Source of the DNA: Bdellovibrio sp. GT3 | Lineage (GTDB): Bacteria; Bdellovibrionota; Bdellovibrionia; Bdellovibrionales; Bdellovibrionaceae | Reading direction: 5' to 3' | NCBI RefSeq assembly: GCF_037996765.1 | Contig: NZ_JBBNAD010000006.1 | Coordinates: forward strand, 124,001 to 188,000 | DNA length: 64,000 nt | In this document: positions 25,984-63,506 of the stretch, piece by piece | How positions within the stretch are numbered: the stretch's first letter is position 1 | Layout of the letters: each line of letters starts with the position of its first letter | Translations under genes and position numbers: made by a program | The notes under the pieces: generated by a model | The model's input: only the letters and a program-made list of their open reading frames with translations | What the model was told of the DNA's origin: nothing | Database searches by the model: none

Positions 25984-27111
25984 ATGAAACTTGAGATTGC
26001 ATCACCTGAAGACTCCGCGGCCCTGGTTGAATTTTACAAAAGCTTCCCCTTGGACGGTCCTTTGCAGATCAAAATCGATCGCAATAAGGATTTTTTCGAG
26101 CCCTATGAAATCCATGGCGAAAAAGCCCTGACATACATCCTTAAAGACGAGGAAAAACTGGAAGGCATGGCAAGTTTTGTCGTGCGCGACGTTTTACTGA
26201 ACAACAAAGTCCAAACCGTGGCCTTCGGTCGCGATCTGCGTATTGCCCAAAATCGTAAAGCCATTTTGGAATGGGGTCAGCACTTTTTGCCGGTCATGAA
26301 TGAAGTCTCCTCTGTGCTTGATGCAAAATATTTCTTCACGGTGATGAGTTTGAACGAAGCCAAATCAATGAACGCCTTCGTTCGCCAACGCAACACCAAG
26401 CGCTCCCTGCCCCGCTATTATCTGTTCCGTCGACTGAATATGATTTCCCTGCACGGTCGCTTTCCGTGGGCGAAAAACCCACTTCCGCATCTGCGCATGC
26501 GCCATGGGAACGCTTCGAATGTCGATGCTTTGATTTACTATATTTCGCAAAAGTCCCGCTCTAAAGATTTGGCCACTGTTTGGGATGCACAAAGCTTCCA
26601 CGATAAATTGGATCGCTGGCAGGGTTTGAAACTGGAAGACTTTATTATTGCGATTGATAAAAACGACAACATCGTCGGTTGCTGTGCGCCTTGGTCTGCA
26701 GAGGGCATGCAGGACTTCATCCCGATGACTTACAATTTGAAGGCCCATAATTTTAGGCAGTTCTTAAAGTTTGGCAAGATGCTGGGTTGGACCCGCACGA
26801 TGACCAAGCCTTTTTCGCGACTGAAAATTGAAGCGAGTTTGAATTTTAAATATTTAAATTTCCTGCACGCAGATAACGGCGATATTTTTGAAGCCTTGCT
26901 ATGGAAGGCCTTTGACGATGCCCGCGAAAATGAATTCCTGGTTTATAATCAAATGCGCTCGGAGTTTATCTATCGCAGGCCTATGGATTGGGTGTCGGCG
27001 AAGCTGCCGTTTGGGGTTTATCTGATGTTGCCGCCAGATCAGGAACCACCGTCGTTTCTGCATCCTTCCAACGAGCGCCCAATTGAAATGGAGCCGTTCT
27101 TTACTTTCTAA
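25984..27111 (+). CDS. uncharacterised GNAT-like protein
   Basis: A 375-residue cytoplasmic protein. The first 130 residues have a GNAT-like layout, with a strand-rich EGMASFVVRDVLLNNKVQTVAFGRDLRIA segment, then MSLNEAKSMNAFVR. A second similar half follows (EDFIIAIDKNDNIVGCCAPWS). It may therefore be a two-domain acyltransferase-like fold. No clear acetyl-CoA loop (R/Q-x-x-G-x-G/A) is visible, so activity is uncertain. It is probably co-transcribed with the adenosyltransferase. Its stop codon runs directly into a repeat element. Confidence 0.65.
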   Translation: MKLEIASPEDSAALVEFYKSFPLDGPLQIKIDRNKDFFEPYEIHGEKALTYILKDEEKLEGMASFVVRDVLLNNKVQTVAFGRDLRIAQNRKAILEWGQHFLPVMNEVSSVLDAKYFFTVMSLNEAKSMNAFVRQRNTKRSLPRYYLFRRLNMISLHGRFPWAKNPLPHLRMRHGNASNVDALIYYISQKSRSKDLATVWDAQSFHDKLDRWQGLKLEDFIIAIDKNDNIVGCCAPWSAEGMQDFIPMTYNLKAHNFRQFLKFGKMLGWTRTMTKPFSRLKIEASLNFKYLNFLHADNGDIFEALLWKAFDDARENEFLVYNQMRSEFIYRRPMDWVSAKLPFGVYLMLPPDQEPPSFLHPSNERPIEMEPFFTF

Positions 27112-27162
27112 AGGTACGGCCTTACTTTTTGGATTTTAACGCGACTCTTCTTGGTAGCGCGG
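27110..27162 (+). repeat. GNAT-flanking element, copy A
   Basis: It begins AAAGGTACGGCCTTACTTT (27110-27128) and ends CTCTTCTTGGTAGCGCGG (27145-27162). It shares both blocks, in the same order and orientation, with copy B at 28497-28558. It starts on the last base of the preceding stop codon. The first block is a partial inverted repeat. Confidence 0.75.
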
Positions 27163-27184
27163 TAACTAAATCACACCCGACACA

Positions 27185-27736
27185 TTACAGCGTCTTGATC
27201 ATTATTATTTCATCGCAGAACGTACCATCGGGCTGCCTGTACGCCCGCGGCCTGCGCCCGCACTCTTGAAAACCGACTTTTTTATATAGCTGATAGGCTG
27301 AGTGATTTTCACTAAAAAGACTCAACTCCATTTGCGTGAGTCCTTCAATTTTTCGAACTTCTGATAGCAACTTTTGAAAAATCAAATACCCCAAACCCTC
27401 ACCACGCATATCGGAATGAAGAGAAATACCCAAAGAACCCCGGTGTTTGGTTTTCGCACTTTTGCCGCCATTAAAATTTAGTATCCCGATAGTCTTGTTT
27501 TCATATTCTGCAATAATGACCAGACCTCGAAGGTCATCGTTGTGCTTTTGTATCCAGGCTTGCTCTTCTTCGACAGTTTTCTTTTTAAAGTCCTCGACTG
27601 AGCCAATAATATGCGGAGACGTTGCGGCGATTTCGACCATCGCTTGAATCATTCCCAGAGCGTCCTCTGAATTGGGGGACCTTAGCAGAACTTGTTTTTG
27701 TTTTTTTGTACTGACGACTTCTGAGGAAATTCGCAT
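27185..27736 (-). CDS. GNAT family N-acetyltransferase
   Basis: About 183 residues from the ATG at 27736, which follows AAAGGAG. The acetyl-CoA-binding motif A is MRGEGLGYLIFQKLL near residue 125, and the C-terminal NHSAYQLYKKVGFQECGRRPRAYRQPDG matches the RimJ/RimL-type GNAT group. It is clearly a paralogue of the next gene (similar length, with matching WIQKH/WIKRY, RGSLGIS/RGHLGMS, LYKKVGF and ECGR segments). The substrate is unknown. The pair is bounded by related repeat elements. Confidence 0.88.
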   Translation of the reverse strand: MRISSEVVSTKKQKQVLLRSPNSEDALGMIQAMVEIAATSPHIIGSVEDFKKKTVEEEQAWIQKHNDDLRGLVIIAEYENKTIGILNFNGGKSAKTKHRGSLGISLHSDMRGEGLGYLIFQKLLSEVRKIEGLTQMELSLFSENHSAYQLYKKVGFQECGRRPRAYRQPDGTFCDEIIMIKTL

Positions 27737-27842
27737 GGTGACTCCTTTGGATATCGTCACACTGGATAAGGAGCTCTGTCAAACTTCAGGTGTTGGCCTT
27801 CCCGCGCACTGACTCAATATTTCGGTATAGCGCGAACGCGCA

Positions 27843-28394
27843 CTACACCGTCACATACATCGAAATTTCTTCAGCAAAAGTTCCGTCTTCAAGACGGAAC
27901 GCATTTGGTTTTCTGCCGCACTCCATGAAGCCGACCTTTTTGTACAGATTGTAAGCCGGAGTATTCGGATGCATAACACTCAATTCAATTTGCGTGATTC
28001 CCTCTGCTCGCGGAACTTCTGCGAAAAGCTTTCTCAGCAACAACTCCCCGATACCGTCACCGCGCAGAGATGGCGCAATAGACATTCCCAAGTGACCGCG
28101 ATGCAGATTCTTAAAGCGAATCCCCGTACTGAAATCCAGATTGCCAACGATTTTACCATCACATTCGGCCAATATGATCATATCCCGATTGGATTCTTGG
28201 TAGCGCTTGATCCAATTCTGCTCGGAGTCCTCGGACTTGGATCTGAAATCATCCGCAGTACTCAATATATACGGAGCCGTTTCCGCGACCTCGACCATGA
28301 ATACCCGTAGCGCCTTGGCGTCCTCGATGGTTGGCGCGCGCAACGTGATAGTTTTACCTGTCTTACTTTTGGTGATTTCAGTTTTGATGTCCAC
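27843..28394 (-). CDS. GNAT family N-acetyltransferase (tandem paralogue)
   Basis: A 183-residue protein of the same build as its neighbour. ITLRAPTIEDAKALR is at the start, acetyl-CoA loop LRGDGIGELLLRKLF near residue 120, and NTPAYNLYKKVGFMECGRKPNAFRLEDG at the end. The two genes point the same way, with about 106 bases between them, and look like a local duplication that has diverged. It may acetylate a small amine or a protein N-terminus. The sequence does not decide. Confidence 0.88.
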   Translation of the reverse strand: MDIKTEITKSKTGKTITLRAPTIEDAKALRVFMVEVAETAPYILSTADDFRSKSEDSEQNWIKRYQESNRDMIILAECDGKIVGNLDFSTGIRFKNLHRGHLGMSIAPSLRGDGIGELLLRKLFAEVPRAEGITQIELSVMHPNTPAYNLYKKVGFMECGRKPNAFRLEDGTFAEEISMYVTV

Positions 28395-28496
28395 TTTGAC
28401 TCCTCAAAGTATTATCTTACCTTGATTCAAATTCCGTCAAACTTTGCATCCGAAGATAATTTTTATGGGAGACATAAGAAGCTAAGGGTCGTAGCT

Positions 28497-28558
28497 AAAG
28501 GTACGGCCTTACTTTCACATTCTCGTTTTAAATAACGCAGCTCTTCTTGGTCGCGCGG
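28497..28558 (+). repeat. GNAT-flanking element, copy B
   Basis: Same two blocks as copy A: AAAGGTACGGCCTTACTTT at 28497-28515 and CTCTTCTTGGTCGCGCGG at 28541-28558 (one base differs from A in the second block). The spacing between blocks is 9 bases longer. Copies A and B are direct repeats about 1.4 kb apart, enclosing the two GNAT genes. Confidence 0.75.
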
Positions 28559-28565
28559 TTTAGAA

Positions 28566-28940
28566 CTAATTGCCCGAGGTGAAGGTCTTATCCAGAACCA
28601 CGCCCTCTTTAAAATTTATGGCGCAGTGGTTTTTTGCAAAACTGACTGTGGCTACACCCTCGGTGAAGCCCGCTGATTTCGCTGGCGAAAAAGTTCCTTT
28701 ATTTGCTGCATTCACAACCTGACCTGTGGAATCCGTGAAGACCAGTTGTTCAAAAGCGGATGCGCCGATGAGTTCCATGACTTCAGAAATATTTTTCCCT
28801 GGCGTGATGGATTCACAAAAATTCTGAGCCTGTTCAAGGACCGCCTCGGATTTATTTTTATTATAATAAATACCTGCGATAACCACACAGACCACACCAA
28901 GAACCACTGCGATTTTTTTGAAAGCATTATTTGAATTCAT
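28566..28940 (-). CDS. membrane-anchored protein of unknown function
   Basis: A 124-residue protein. A single hydrophobic helix at about residues 8-26 (IAVVLGVVCVVIAGIYY) follows a short basic N-terminus, so the rest is probably periplasmic. The mature domain has two cysteines (FCESITPG and NHCAINF), which could form a disulfide, and a SmpA/BamE-like outline (TPGKNISEVMELIG). The BamE resemblance is weak and I do not assign it. It stands alone between repeats B and C. Confidence 0.6.
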   Translation of the reverse strand: MNSNNAFKKIAVVLGVVCVVIAGIYYNKNKSEAVLEQAQNFCESITPGKNISEVMELIGASAFEQLVFTDSTGQVVNAANKGTFSPAKSAGFTEGVATVSFAKNHCAINFKEGVVLDKTFTSGN

Positions 28941-29087
28941 ACGTTGATTGTTTTATTTCAGTTTAATTGAGTCAAGCAGCAAAAAGGTCGCTTCAGAAGT
29001 CTATTTGTCGTTTAAGTTGTCATTTAAAACTTTTGTGTCGGCCAATTACTCCGTTACGCCGATTTCTTTTTTCTTTTCTTGATTTCC

Positions 29088-29150
29088 TACTTCCTACTTC
29101 TTACTTCTTATTTCTTATTTCTTATTTCTTACTTCTTATTTTCTATTTCT
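29088..29150 (+). repeat. nine-unit heptanucleotide tandem array
   Basis: Nine consecutive 7-base units of the form TAYTTCY, with one unit slipped (TATTTTC), total 63 bases. It lies in the 491-base gap between the divergent genes 28940 and 29432. Such arrays can change length by polymerase slippage. A dubious reading frame runs through it, which I do not call as a gene. Confidence 0.85.
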
Positions 29151-29164
29151 CCTCTCCCGCTTTT

Positions 29165-29181
29165 CCGCGCTACCAAGAAGC
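29165..29181 (-). repeat. 17-bp repeat, copy C (inverted)
   Basis: The minus strand reads GCTTCTTGGTAGCGCGG, identical to copy D at 30204-30220 and sharing its last 15 bases with block 2 of element A. Confidence 0.75.
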
Positions 29182-29431
29182 ATCGCTTCAATTACTAAGA
29201 TATTAGACTATTCTTCTTGCCATGGTTTTCGTGTGTTTAAAATGCCCACTCATGCATTGTTTCTTTTGATTCGCGAGCGACCTCCTAGGGAATTTTATGT
29301 GTCGCCACAGCTAATCCTCGATGATTTCACTGCACATTAGCGTCTCCTTCAGAGTGCATTTGGGTTTACAAATATCGGTAAAATTCGCCTTTTAAAACCC
29401 GTGATACAACTCTTTCAACAAAGGAGTTGAT

Positions 29432-30451
29432 ATGAATTTATCTGCACTATCAAACGAAGAACTAACCGGACGACTTGAGAAGCTGGCGCACTCAGAACGC
29501 AAGATTACTCATTTGGTTTTGAATCATATTAACGAAATGGAATCGCGCCGTCTTTATGCCGAGCTGGGATTTGATTCCATGTTTCGCTATCTAACCAGAC
29601 ATCTAAAATACAGCGAAGATGCGGCCTATCGCAGATTAAGTGCCGCACGAATTTTGAAACAAGCACCCCAAGTGGCGGAAAAACTAGAAAACGGCACTTT
29701 AACGTTAACGCAACTGACGCAGGTTCAAAATGCTTTGAAGTTGGAAGCAAAAATCAATCCCAATACGACTTCAGTGAGTCTACTACCTACGGTACTTGAA
29801 AAAATCGAAAGTAAAACTTCTTTCGAGACTAAATCCACCCTGGCCAAGGACTTTAATCTACCAATTCAAATCGCCGACTCAATCACACCCCAAAAGGACG
29901 ATTCGGTTCGTTTTGAAATCACTTTAACTCAGGAACAAATGAAAACGCTGGAATCTGCGCGGGATCTTATGTCGCATCTAGTTCCAGACGGAAACTGGGC
30001 CGATTTACTAACTGTTCTTGCTGAAAAGCAGATTCACATAATTTTGGGTAAGGAACTTAGTAACCACGATGCCAAAAAAGAATTCACCAAGAAAACCAAT
30101 GCCACTGTTGGTTTTAGTGTCGATGTCGGCGCCGGCGGCCCACTTTCTGTTGCCACTACTGACTTGAGCAAATCATCCTGCGTGAAGCAAAACTCAACGC
30201 AAAGCTTCTTGGTAGCGCGGAAGCGTTCGCAAATTAAAATCACAGACAAACGCAACCTACTCACAACTGCTGACTACTGCTGTGAGTATCGAAGCGCTAA
30301 AGGAATCAAGTGCAACTCAAAGTATCAGTTGCAAATTGACCACATTCAGCCAATTGCTTTAGGCGGAAATAACGAACCACAAAACCTAAGAGTCCTATGC
30401 CGGGCGCACAACTTGACTGAGGCAAGAAGATTAGGGTTGATTGCTGACTGA
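29432..30451 (+). CDS. HNH endonuclease domain protein, DUF222-like N-terminus
   Basis: A 339-residue protein with AAGGAG before the ATG. Residues 1-110 resemble the helical DUF222-like part found before HNH domains in this group (SERKITHLVLNHINEMESRRLYAELGFDSMFRYLTRHL). The C-terminal HNH nuclease has Cys residues in YCCEYRSAKGIKCN and the active-site pattern QIDHIQPIALGG, then NEPQNLRVLCRAHN. Such proteins nick or cut DNA; the target is unknown. At residues about 258-264 the gene itself contains a perfect copy of the 17-bp repeat, giving FLVARK just before the nuclease domain. It is convergent with the barrel gene. Confidence 0.85.
   Translation: MNLSALSNEELTGRLEKLAHSERKITHLVLNHINEMESRRLYAELGFDSMFRYLTRHLKYSEDAAYRRLSAARILKQAPQVAEKLENGTLTLTQLTQVQNALKLEAKINPNTTSVSLLPTVLEKIESKTSFETKSTLAKDFNLPIQIADSITPQKDDSVRFEITLTQEQMKTLESARDLMSHLVPDGNWADLLTVLAEKQIHIILGKELSNHDAKKEFTKKTNATVGFSVDVGAGGPLSVATTDLSKSSCVKQNSTQSFLVARKRSQIKITDKRNLLTTADYCCEYRSAKGIKCNSKYQLQIDHIQPIALGGNNEPQNLRVLCRAHNLTEARRLGLIAD
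30204..30220 (+). repeat. 17-bp repeat, copy D, inside the HNH gene
   Basis: GCTTCTTGGTAGCGCGG in frame within the HNH coding sequence. It is the exact reverse complement of 29165-29181. Confidence 0.8.
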
Positions 30452-31591: not shown

Positions 31592-32161
31592 CTAAATGAA
31601 GGCTTGCTGATTATCGATGAAACTGTCGCGAACCTGTGGCCAGAACCAGCCAAGATTTGGATCAGCCGCGATGACGTCTTTAATTTGAACTTCGACGTCC
31701 TTGCGAGTTGTAACCTCACGACGCAGCCAGAACTCCACTTCGTCATAGCCAGGGCCGATGACAGTGATTTCGACTTTGTCCATAAAGTGCAATAGATGTA
31801 AATCTTTGGTAGCAACGGCATTACCCGCCACTTTGGCGTTGATAAAATTGTGCACGACGTTCTTTAGTTCATCTAAAGAACGATGATTGATTCTTCTCAG
31901 AATCAAATCCGCACGCTGATCCCGATTGACCCAGCGTTGGTGTAAGCCTCTTTGCACAAGGTTGATCAAAAGAGTGCGTAACACACTCGGTATCTGACGA
32001 AATTCATCATCAGACAGTGACATTACCTGCATTAAGTCTACGTAGCGCGCCTGCTCCTGGCCGCGACGAAGGGAGGTAAGCACTTCAGGAATCCGCAAAA
32101 CTGATTCGCGAATCCCCATTAGATCAATTCCTGCTCCATCCGTGAAGTAGAGAATTCTCAT
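31592..32161 (-). CDS. cytoplasmic orphan protein, operon partner of the barrel gene
   Basis: A 189-residue protein with no signal peptide or membrane helix. It is rich in charged and helical segments, including YFTDGAGIDLMGIRESVLRIPEVLTSLRRG and INHRSLDELKNVVHNFINAK. No family is recognised. The 3-base gap to the barrel gene suggests co-translation. The 157 bases upstream, before gspC, contain a palindrome GGACCATGGTCC (32213-32224) and no clear promoter. Confidence 0.65.
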   Translation of the reverse strand: MRILYFTDGAGIDLMGIRESVLRIPEVLTSLRRGQEQARYVDLMQVMSLSDDEFRQIPSVLRTLLINLVQRGLHQRWVNRDQRADLILRRINHRSLDELKNVVHNFINAKVAGNAVATKDLHLLHFMDKVEITVIGPGYDEVEFWLRREVTTRKDVEVQIKDVIAADPNLGWFWPQVRDSFIDNQQAFI

Positions 32162-32318: not shown

Positions 32319-33230
32319 GTGATTTCACGCAACCAGAAAAATCAGCGTCCACCATTTGAAAAATGGTATTCGTATATTTTATTTATCTTTATCGGTTACT
32401 GCGTGGCAGACTTGGCAATTCTTTCATATCGCGATCGCATGTTGCCACAAACAGCGCCACCGGCACACCCGAAAGCACCACCCGCATCCAGCTCTGTGAG
32501 CTCGGGCTTTTACAATAATATTACTTCCAGAAATATCTTCGCCTCCAATGGCCTGATCCCCGATCAACTCGTGGATAAAAACAAAGGCGTGGCAGAGCAA
32601 AAAGAAGCGGATCCGGTTCCGTCTCAATTGCCTTTAAATTTGATTGGTACACTTGTGCATTCCATTCCTGAAAAATCCATTGCGTCGATTGAGATCCGTG
32701 GAAAAAATCAGGTAATTTCTTATTCTGCAGGAAAAGAAATCGAAGGCATGGCGAACATCGTTCGCATCGAAAGACAAAAAGTGGTTTTCCGCAATCTGAA
32801 TTCAAACCGCTTGGAATATATCGAGATGAAAAAAGAAGGCGGCAAACTTAATTTCGCCGCTGCCAAAGCGCCAACCACTGCTGGTGAAGTCAAAAAAGGC
32901 AATGACAATACTTTCACATTGTCCCGCGCGACTTTGTTGAAATATACCAATGATCTTTCCAGTATTTTGATGCAAGCCCGTGCAGTTCCGAATCGTGAAC
33001 CAGGCACTGGCAACATCAACGGCTTCCGCGTTTTAGATATGCAACCTGGCAGTATTTATGAACAACTCGGCATCCAAAGAATGGATGTCATTAAGTCCGT
33101 CGACGGAAATCCTGTCGACAGCCCTGCCAAGGCGATGGAGTTGTACCAAACCCTGAAGAGCAACAATAAAGTTGTTCTTACGGTTGAGCGCAACGGCAAA
33201 AACGAAACGATGACATATAATATTCAATAA
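32319..33230 (+). CDS. gspC: type II secretion protein GspC
   Basis: A 303-residue protein starting at GTG, with AAAGGA upstream. It has a short cytoplasmic tail, one membrane helix (about 19-37, YSYILFIFIGYCVADLAIL) and a Pro-rich linker. The periplasmic homology region is at 95-170 (PLNLIGTLVHS, SYSAGKEI), and a C-terminal PDZ domain at 215-300 (GFRVLDMQPGSIYEQLGIQRMDVIKSVDGNPV). GspC links the inner-membrane platform to the secretin and helps select substrates. It is first of the gspC-N operon. Confidence 0.92.
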   Translation: MISRNQKNQRPPFEKWYSYILFIFIGYCVADLAILSYRDRMLPQTAPPAHPKAPPASSSVSSGFYNNITSRNIFASNGLIPDQLVDKNKGVAEQKEADPVPSQLPLNLIGTLVHSIPEKSIASIEIRGKNQVISYSAGKEIEGMANIVRIERQKVVFRNLNSNRLEYIEMKKEGGKLNFAAAKAPTTAGEVKKGNDNTFTLSRATLLKYTNDLSSILMQARAVPNREPGTGNINGFRVLDMQPGSIYEQLGIQRMDVIKSVDGNPVDSPAKAMELYQTLKSNNKVVLTVERNGKNETMTYNIQ

Positions 33231-63327: not shown

Positions 63328-63396
63328 GAATAGTGCATTAATATCCGCGCGACTAAGAAATATGCGTCAGTTAAAACTCTAGGCGTTTCAAAAACA

Positions 63397-63430: not shown

Positions 63431-63506
63431 TTATTGGAGAAAGTAAGTCCGTACCTAAGCCTCCGGGCATTCAACACGCCGTTTACAGAAGTAGGACCGG
63501 CACCTT

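Follow-up and report, generated by a model that had tools for sequence, protein, structure and literature searches.

How does it come about that one short DNA sequence recurs upstream of, and once within, a single nuclease gene? The question is raised by a 64,000-nucleotide stretch from Bdellovibrio sp. GT3 (G000:C6:124001-188000, here called the window; G000 is the organism's own genome of 3.58 Mb), in which copies of a motif cluster at a gene for a protein with a DUF222 domain N-terminal to an HNH domain (Table 1). We consider it about an even bet, judging from sequence comparison, that the repeat bracketing a DUF222-HNH gene is in each case the cognate DNA site of the encoded protein, and that gene and repeats together constitute a mobile element of ~1.05-1.45 kb inserting into intergenic DNA. 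The genomes display the association of repeats and genes, their co-variation, the placement of the copies and breakpoints of homology at their edges; binding, cleavage and movement we infer.

How local is the motif? Its 16-base core, CTTCTTGGTAGCGCGG, occurs at no more than one mismatch four times in the whole genome, all within a span of 3.1 kb: at 27147-27162 (+), 28543-28558 (+, one mismatch), 29165-29180 (-) and 30205-30220 (+), each within one or two bases of where an initial annotation of this DNA had placed it. At up to two mismatches the own genome holds these four and one extra match with two mismatches; at up to three, the window alone holds six matches compared with 0.47 in shuffled windows. 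That no other copies were noticed in the window holds at one mismatch, and besides the four there are two weak three-mismatch matches, one at 28193 within an acetyltransferase gene and one at 63345 (-), close to another GTACGG repeat, absent from the genome-wide model output and not significant. Aligning 36 copies extends the motif to ~28 bp, GACGCAGCTTTTCTTGGTAGCGCGGAA, which is non-palindromic; no consensus RNA or hairpin structure was found for these 36 window-type copies, and an Rfam search of the region gave no match. Six copies are significant in the own genome, all of them around two genes. A pyrimidine-rich imperfect repeat tract of the CTTCTTATTT type (29065-29160) lies immediately upstream of the inverted copy, and a sequence with weak likeness to the motif, GACGCTGATTTTTCTGGTTGCGTGAAATCACAG at 32322-32349 (-), is found near the start of gene 31592-32161 and kept in G011, G021 and G022, the genomes nearest to this one.

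The copy inside the gene is the most informative about what is being conserved. Pfam assigns residues 293-325 of the window gene product to HNH (E=7e-7) and finds DUF222 with E=1e-4 at 22.0 bits, just under the curated cut-off of 24.4; the N-terminal DUF222 region is conserved across paralogues, and the HNH domain has the conserved catalytic-type residues. The genome groups with Bdellovibrio, metagenome-assembled Bdellovibrio genomes being the closest named relatives that the protein turned up; a search of viral contigs found no relative of it, and Foldseek against PDB returned nothing with E <0.001, HNH nucleases ranking best and DUF222 being without any match. As the initial annotation had it, one motif copy is in frame ahead of the nuclease domain. 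It occupies codons 255-264 of 339, at the edge of a linker that is predicted to be disordered and as such is a place tolerant of insertions. Only 2% of the linker residues are identical among four orthologues. The codons of the motif spell S-F-L-[VA]-A-[RQ]-K-R, with TTC, TTG and GCG invariant in all four, while gene-wide the same codon is retained at just 24% of identical residues; moreover, paralogues that carry their second copy after the stop codon are without this peptide. Therefore DNA rather than protein appears to be conserved here, and protein conservation in relatives does not account for the coding copy.

Is the motif tied to this type of gene beyond the window? Searching 40 genomes with the 16-mer alone, at up to one mismatch and with the own copies left out, is a non-circular test and gave 11 matches. 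Three of them lie within or at most 500 bp from a DUF222-HNH gene (inside the gene in G022, 256 bp upstream in G016 and 459 bp upstream in G007), corresponding to a binomial p = 8e-5 if 0.8% of the genome is that close, a value estimated from ~15 such genes per genome. In 24 Bdellovibrio genomes, a sequence model of the motif yielded 40 matches at E < 0.005. A gene of one DUF222-HNH subfamily is no more than 1.7 kb away from 31 of them and no more than about 20 kb away from 36; these counts depend on the membership cut-off chosen. The link between repeat and nuclease that had been suggested, together with a search for a 15-bp core in relatives, is supported by these numbers; rather than being evenly spread, the core has its four copies in 3.1 kb here, and most of the model's matches lie near subfamily genes. 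The usual layout comprises an inverted copy ~200-370 bp upstream of the gene (commonly ~240 bp) and a second copy either in the linker (the window type) or anywhere between the stop codon and ~100 bp beyond it (L037, L067, L068, L070, L074 and L075). Within an element the two copies agree better than copies taken from different elements (13.5 versus 11.8 of 16 positions, reached by 0 of 20,000 shuffles), and similarity of the motifs correlates with similarity of the proteins (Mantel r = 0.53, p = 2e-4). The motifs of the window gene and of L037 are two versions from a single family.

Other DUF222-HNH genes have different repeats of their own in the same places, which the initial annotation had not noticed. 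When genes were examined for any repeat common to the upstream region and the 3' part or downstream region, six of the eight DUF222(-HNH) genes of the own genome proved to be bracketed, whereas only 4 of 250 others were (Fisher p = 1.5e-8). One of these four is the tandem GNAT pair, where the repeat is coding, and another is a neighbour of L039 bracketed by the L039 repeat. A control set of 73 genes, taken from the window and from relatives and partly overlapping the 250, contained no bracketed gene. The repeats differ from gene to gene, the window motif with its two related versions excepted, and measure 19 to 188 bp: ACGCARAGCTTCGCSATCAAGA upstream and in the linker of L041; TCACCGCCACNGTGGCGG upstream, in the linker and downstream of L039, with one further copy upstream; TTCACACCCGCTGCGGTGGTG upstream and at the open reading frame (ORF) end of L040; CCACYGCCATTTGGCGGTG upstream and downstream of L042; and longer repeats at L061, L112 and L206, L061 having two unrelated pairs. 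Those of L039, L042 and L118 are palindromic. Where checked, they are also private: the L040 repeat has two copies genome-wide, both around L040, the L042 repeat occurs at four places genome-wide, all inside 34 kb, and those of L039 and L041 stay, in the ~344 kb examined, within the surroundings of their genes, bar one to two weak matches. L078 and L040 encode DUF222 only and stop just past the repeat, which looks like a loss of the HNH part between two copies.

Some of these loci have further features. At L112 the DUF222-HNH gene sits between the arms of a 188-bp inverted repeat, so that inversion of the gene is possible, and the palindromic L039 repeat also brackets a neighbouring ORF of 422 amino acids with a Gly-rich C-terminal half and a cargo-like appearance (G000:C4:356989-359955; L234, L235). 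Upstream of DUF222-HNH genes such as L067, L068 and L042 an inner box, GTAAT...TTTGACGTGGTTTTT, is conserved and common to elements with different outer repeats.

Do the repeats coincide with the boundaries of inserted DNA? In G011, G021 and G022 gene 25984-27111 is 90-91% and gene 31592-32161 is 93-94% identical to the own copy, and the HNH orthologue between them merely ~59-64%. In all three an inverted copy precedes the HNH gene by ~240 bp and another copy lies in the linker. A copy also follows straight after gene 25984 in G011 and G021 and, in G022, after one more ORF; the gene just past this first solo copy is a different one in the own genome, in G011 and in G021. The interval between the 25984 and 31592 genes is a hotspot, occupied by window-type genes in four species, by other subfamilies in G010 and G014 and by a truncated gene in G015. 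Comparing the outer flanks of four elements across the genus revealed that homology to relatives starts or ends 0-7 bp from the outer edge of the motif at three loci, namely at the right end of L068 (versus the own genome, G021 and G011), the right end of L037 (versus G011, G021 and G022) and the left end of L067 (versus G022). At the L037 site G011, G021 and G022 carry a DUF222-HNH gene of a different subfamily, and in several more distant genomes the site offers too little space for such a gene. The L070 element in G021 (L194, G021:C1:3233500-3237000) is situated at a rearrangement junction, its flanks being far apart in G011 and G022. Furthermore, gene 25984 and the HNH gene are separated by a purine operon in G011, G021 and G022 (L102, L103, L105), and no purF match above GlmS-like background was found in the own genome. 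Loss of purine synthesis in this predator is possible, as is deletion of the operon between direct motif copies; more distant members of the genus, however, have no purine operon directly next to these genes within the flanks read, so that the change may have gone either way.

How could such an element operate? The DUF222-HNH protein would recognise its own repeat, probably via DUF222, and the HNH domain would nick or cut at it. Repair could then copy the element, or merely a short end of it, into nearby intergenic DNA, which would leave solo copies behind and sometimes move or delete genes located between copies. Several points weigh against this reading. The right copy of the window type is within the ORF, ahead of the HNH domain, and therefore is not a simple transposon end; the orientation of both copies is reversed in G007, and the repeats of L040 and L206 are direct instead of inverted, so that the copies are altogether not simply transposon ends. 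L038 and L043, DUF222-HNH genes of the own genome, have no such repeat. HNH-adjacent sites were among those used to build the motif model (R1), and orthologous loci are non-independent. A target-site duplication was not established, the junctions being too diverged, and no strain pair caught a recent move, as the genomes are one per species and recent events are therefore invisible.

The same repeats could also be local scars without a role of their own, left because the HNH gene resides in recombination-prone intergenic DNA where break repair copies nearby pieces, the breaks perhaps coming from non-specific cutting by the nuclease. The bracketing repeats are indeed local, gene-specific, direct or inverted and of very different length (19 to 188 bp), the segments 27110-27162 and 28497-28558 both include a GTACGG repeat, which suggests the copying of a longer piece, and the two unrelated repeat pairs of L061 would fit as well. 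Scars should decay, however, and the window-type motif has kept its sequence and its place in several species and varies together with the protein. Since neither this long-term conservation nor the co-variation is explained by scars, we regard that origin as rather unlikely. Passenger repeats, that is, independent small mobile repeats of the REP (repetitive extragenic palindromic) or Rickettsia palindromic element type that depend on another transposase and accumulated here by chance, would account for the solo copies and for the palindromic repeats of L039, L042 and L118, and Bdellovibrio does carry other dispersed repeats such as GTACGG. Yet the private repeats are absent elsewhere in the genome and bracket just 4 of 250 other genes; passengers fail to explain why other genes lack them, which makes this origin improbable.

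Improbable as well, in our view, is a regulatory function, in which the repeats are operators bound by the DUF222-HNH protein or by another regulator to control the gene. The fairly constant distance of ~240 bp between upstream copy and gene, and the conserved TTGACG-containing box adjoining this copy, would be expected of an operator. Other copies, by contrast, lie in the linker, past the stop codon or kilobases off and coincide with homology breakpoints, and a conserved -10-like TATAA is found near the start codon, distant from the repeat; operators thus fail to explain the distant copies and the breakpoints. If, on the other hand, a mobile element with its own site beside each gene is the right explanation, the target of each nuclease could be read from its surroundings and the function of the family would become directly testable; a plain HNH nuclease without a transposase could then power a mobile element and rearrange the genes around it.

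Does a known system have these properties? In REP/RAYT (TnpA-REP) systems REP sequences occur with associated tyrosine transposases (PMC2817692, PMC8266576). The likeness to them proposed in the initial annotation stands for the layout: a gene with copies of its own short repeat in opposite orientation on either side, repeats that differ by gene, and solo copies. It does not extend to the enzyme, which is a Y1 (HUH) transposase there, whereas Pfam and NCBIfam give HNH and DUF222 only here, nor to copy number, which is high and genome-wide there and low and local here, nor to the palindromic hairpin, which is not conserved in the window motif in spite of the palindromic L039 and L042 repeats. 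Membership in REP/RAYT was rejected on these three grounds. Closer in protein are the 13E12-family DUF222-HNH genes, described as gene-conversion hotspots without a defined biological function (2026 preprint, PMC13061034), and REP13E12 of mycobacteria, counted among repetitive elements (PMC10589994). They share the architecture, the multicopy and recombination-prone nature and the undefined function; compared by description, however, the repeated unit in mycobacteria is the gene region itself. In the literature outside most subscription journals no paper was found that describes private short repeats bracketing DUF222-HNH genes. That DUF222-HNH proteins in general are enzymes of an undescribed minimal class of mobile elements, each with a private 18-28 bp repeat, local copying and intergenic hotspots, and that the multicopy 13E12 genes of actinobacteria would thereby be accounted for as well, is a tentative extension that we consider possible but doubtful.

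Free-standing HNH homing endonuclease genes, such as those for phage T4 Mob and the SPO1-type HNH enzymes, are similar in that a single nuclease gene is found near long asymmetric recognition sites and moves between intergenic sites, as the genes described here may do; they differ in that the gene here still has two to four intact copies around and within it and no interrupted target site is apparent. Insertion sequences resemble the after-stop type, with one gene, ~1.2-1.45 kb and ~28-bp inverted ends that come within 0-7 bp of the insertion boundary at the L068, L037 and L067 loci, but no known transposase domain (Pfam, NCBIfam) and, at the strongly diverged junctions, no target duplication were seen here, and the window type has its right copy inside the ORF. 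Rickettsia palindromic elements are short repeats tolerated in frame within protein-coding genes, like the linker copy; they are spread over many genes, whereas the repeats considered here are tied to one gene family. An IscB-like, RNA-guided HNH system, which would have a RuvC domain and a guide RNA, was rejected, as the HNH part alone matches, far below the cut-off, and Rfam gave no match.

Table 1. Motif copies and neighbouring features in the window.
Feature	Position	Strand	Relatives or basis
Upstream inverted motif copy, 243 bp before ATG	29162..29189	-	same place in G011, G021, G022
In-frame motif copy, linker between DUF222 and HNH	30196..30223	+	same place in G011, G021, G022
Solo motif copy right after gene 25984-27111	27138..27165	+	counterpart in G011, G021
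Solo motif copy, 1 mismatch within 16-base core	28534..28561	+	
DUF222-HNH gene, 339 amino acids	29432..30451	+	ORF, Pfam match, paralogue alignment
GTACGG repeat AAAGGTACGGCCTTACTTT, separate dispersed family	27110..27128	+	beside 27138 solo copy
Second GTACGG repeat AAAGGTACGGCCTTACTTT	28497..28515	+	beside 28534 solo copy
Two GNAT acetyltransferase genes between solo copies	27185..28394	-	homologues adjoin HNH gene in G011, G022

The GTACGG repeat next to each solo copy was considered as a part of the motif and rejected, being a separate dispersed family. Its sequence AAAGGTACGGCCTTACTTT has 31 matches at up to three mismatches in the own genome, and the family, GGTACGG[AC]CTTAC, is REP-like, frequently forms adjacent inverted pairs and is also represented at 63440-63458. 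The GNAT pair enclosed by the two solo copies is possibly cargo.
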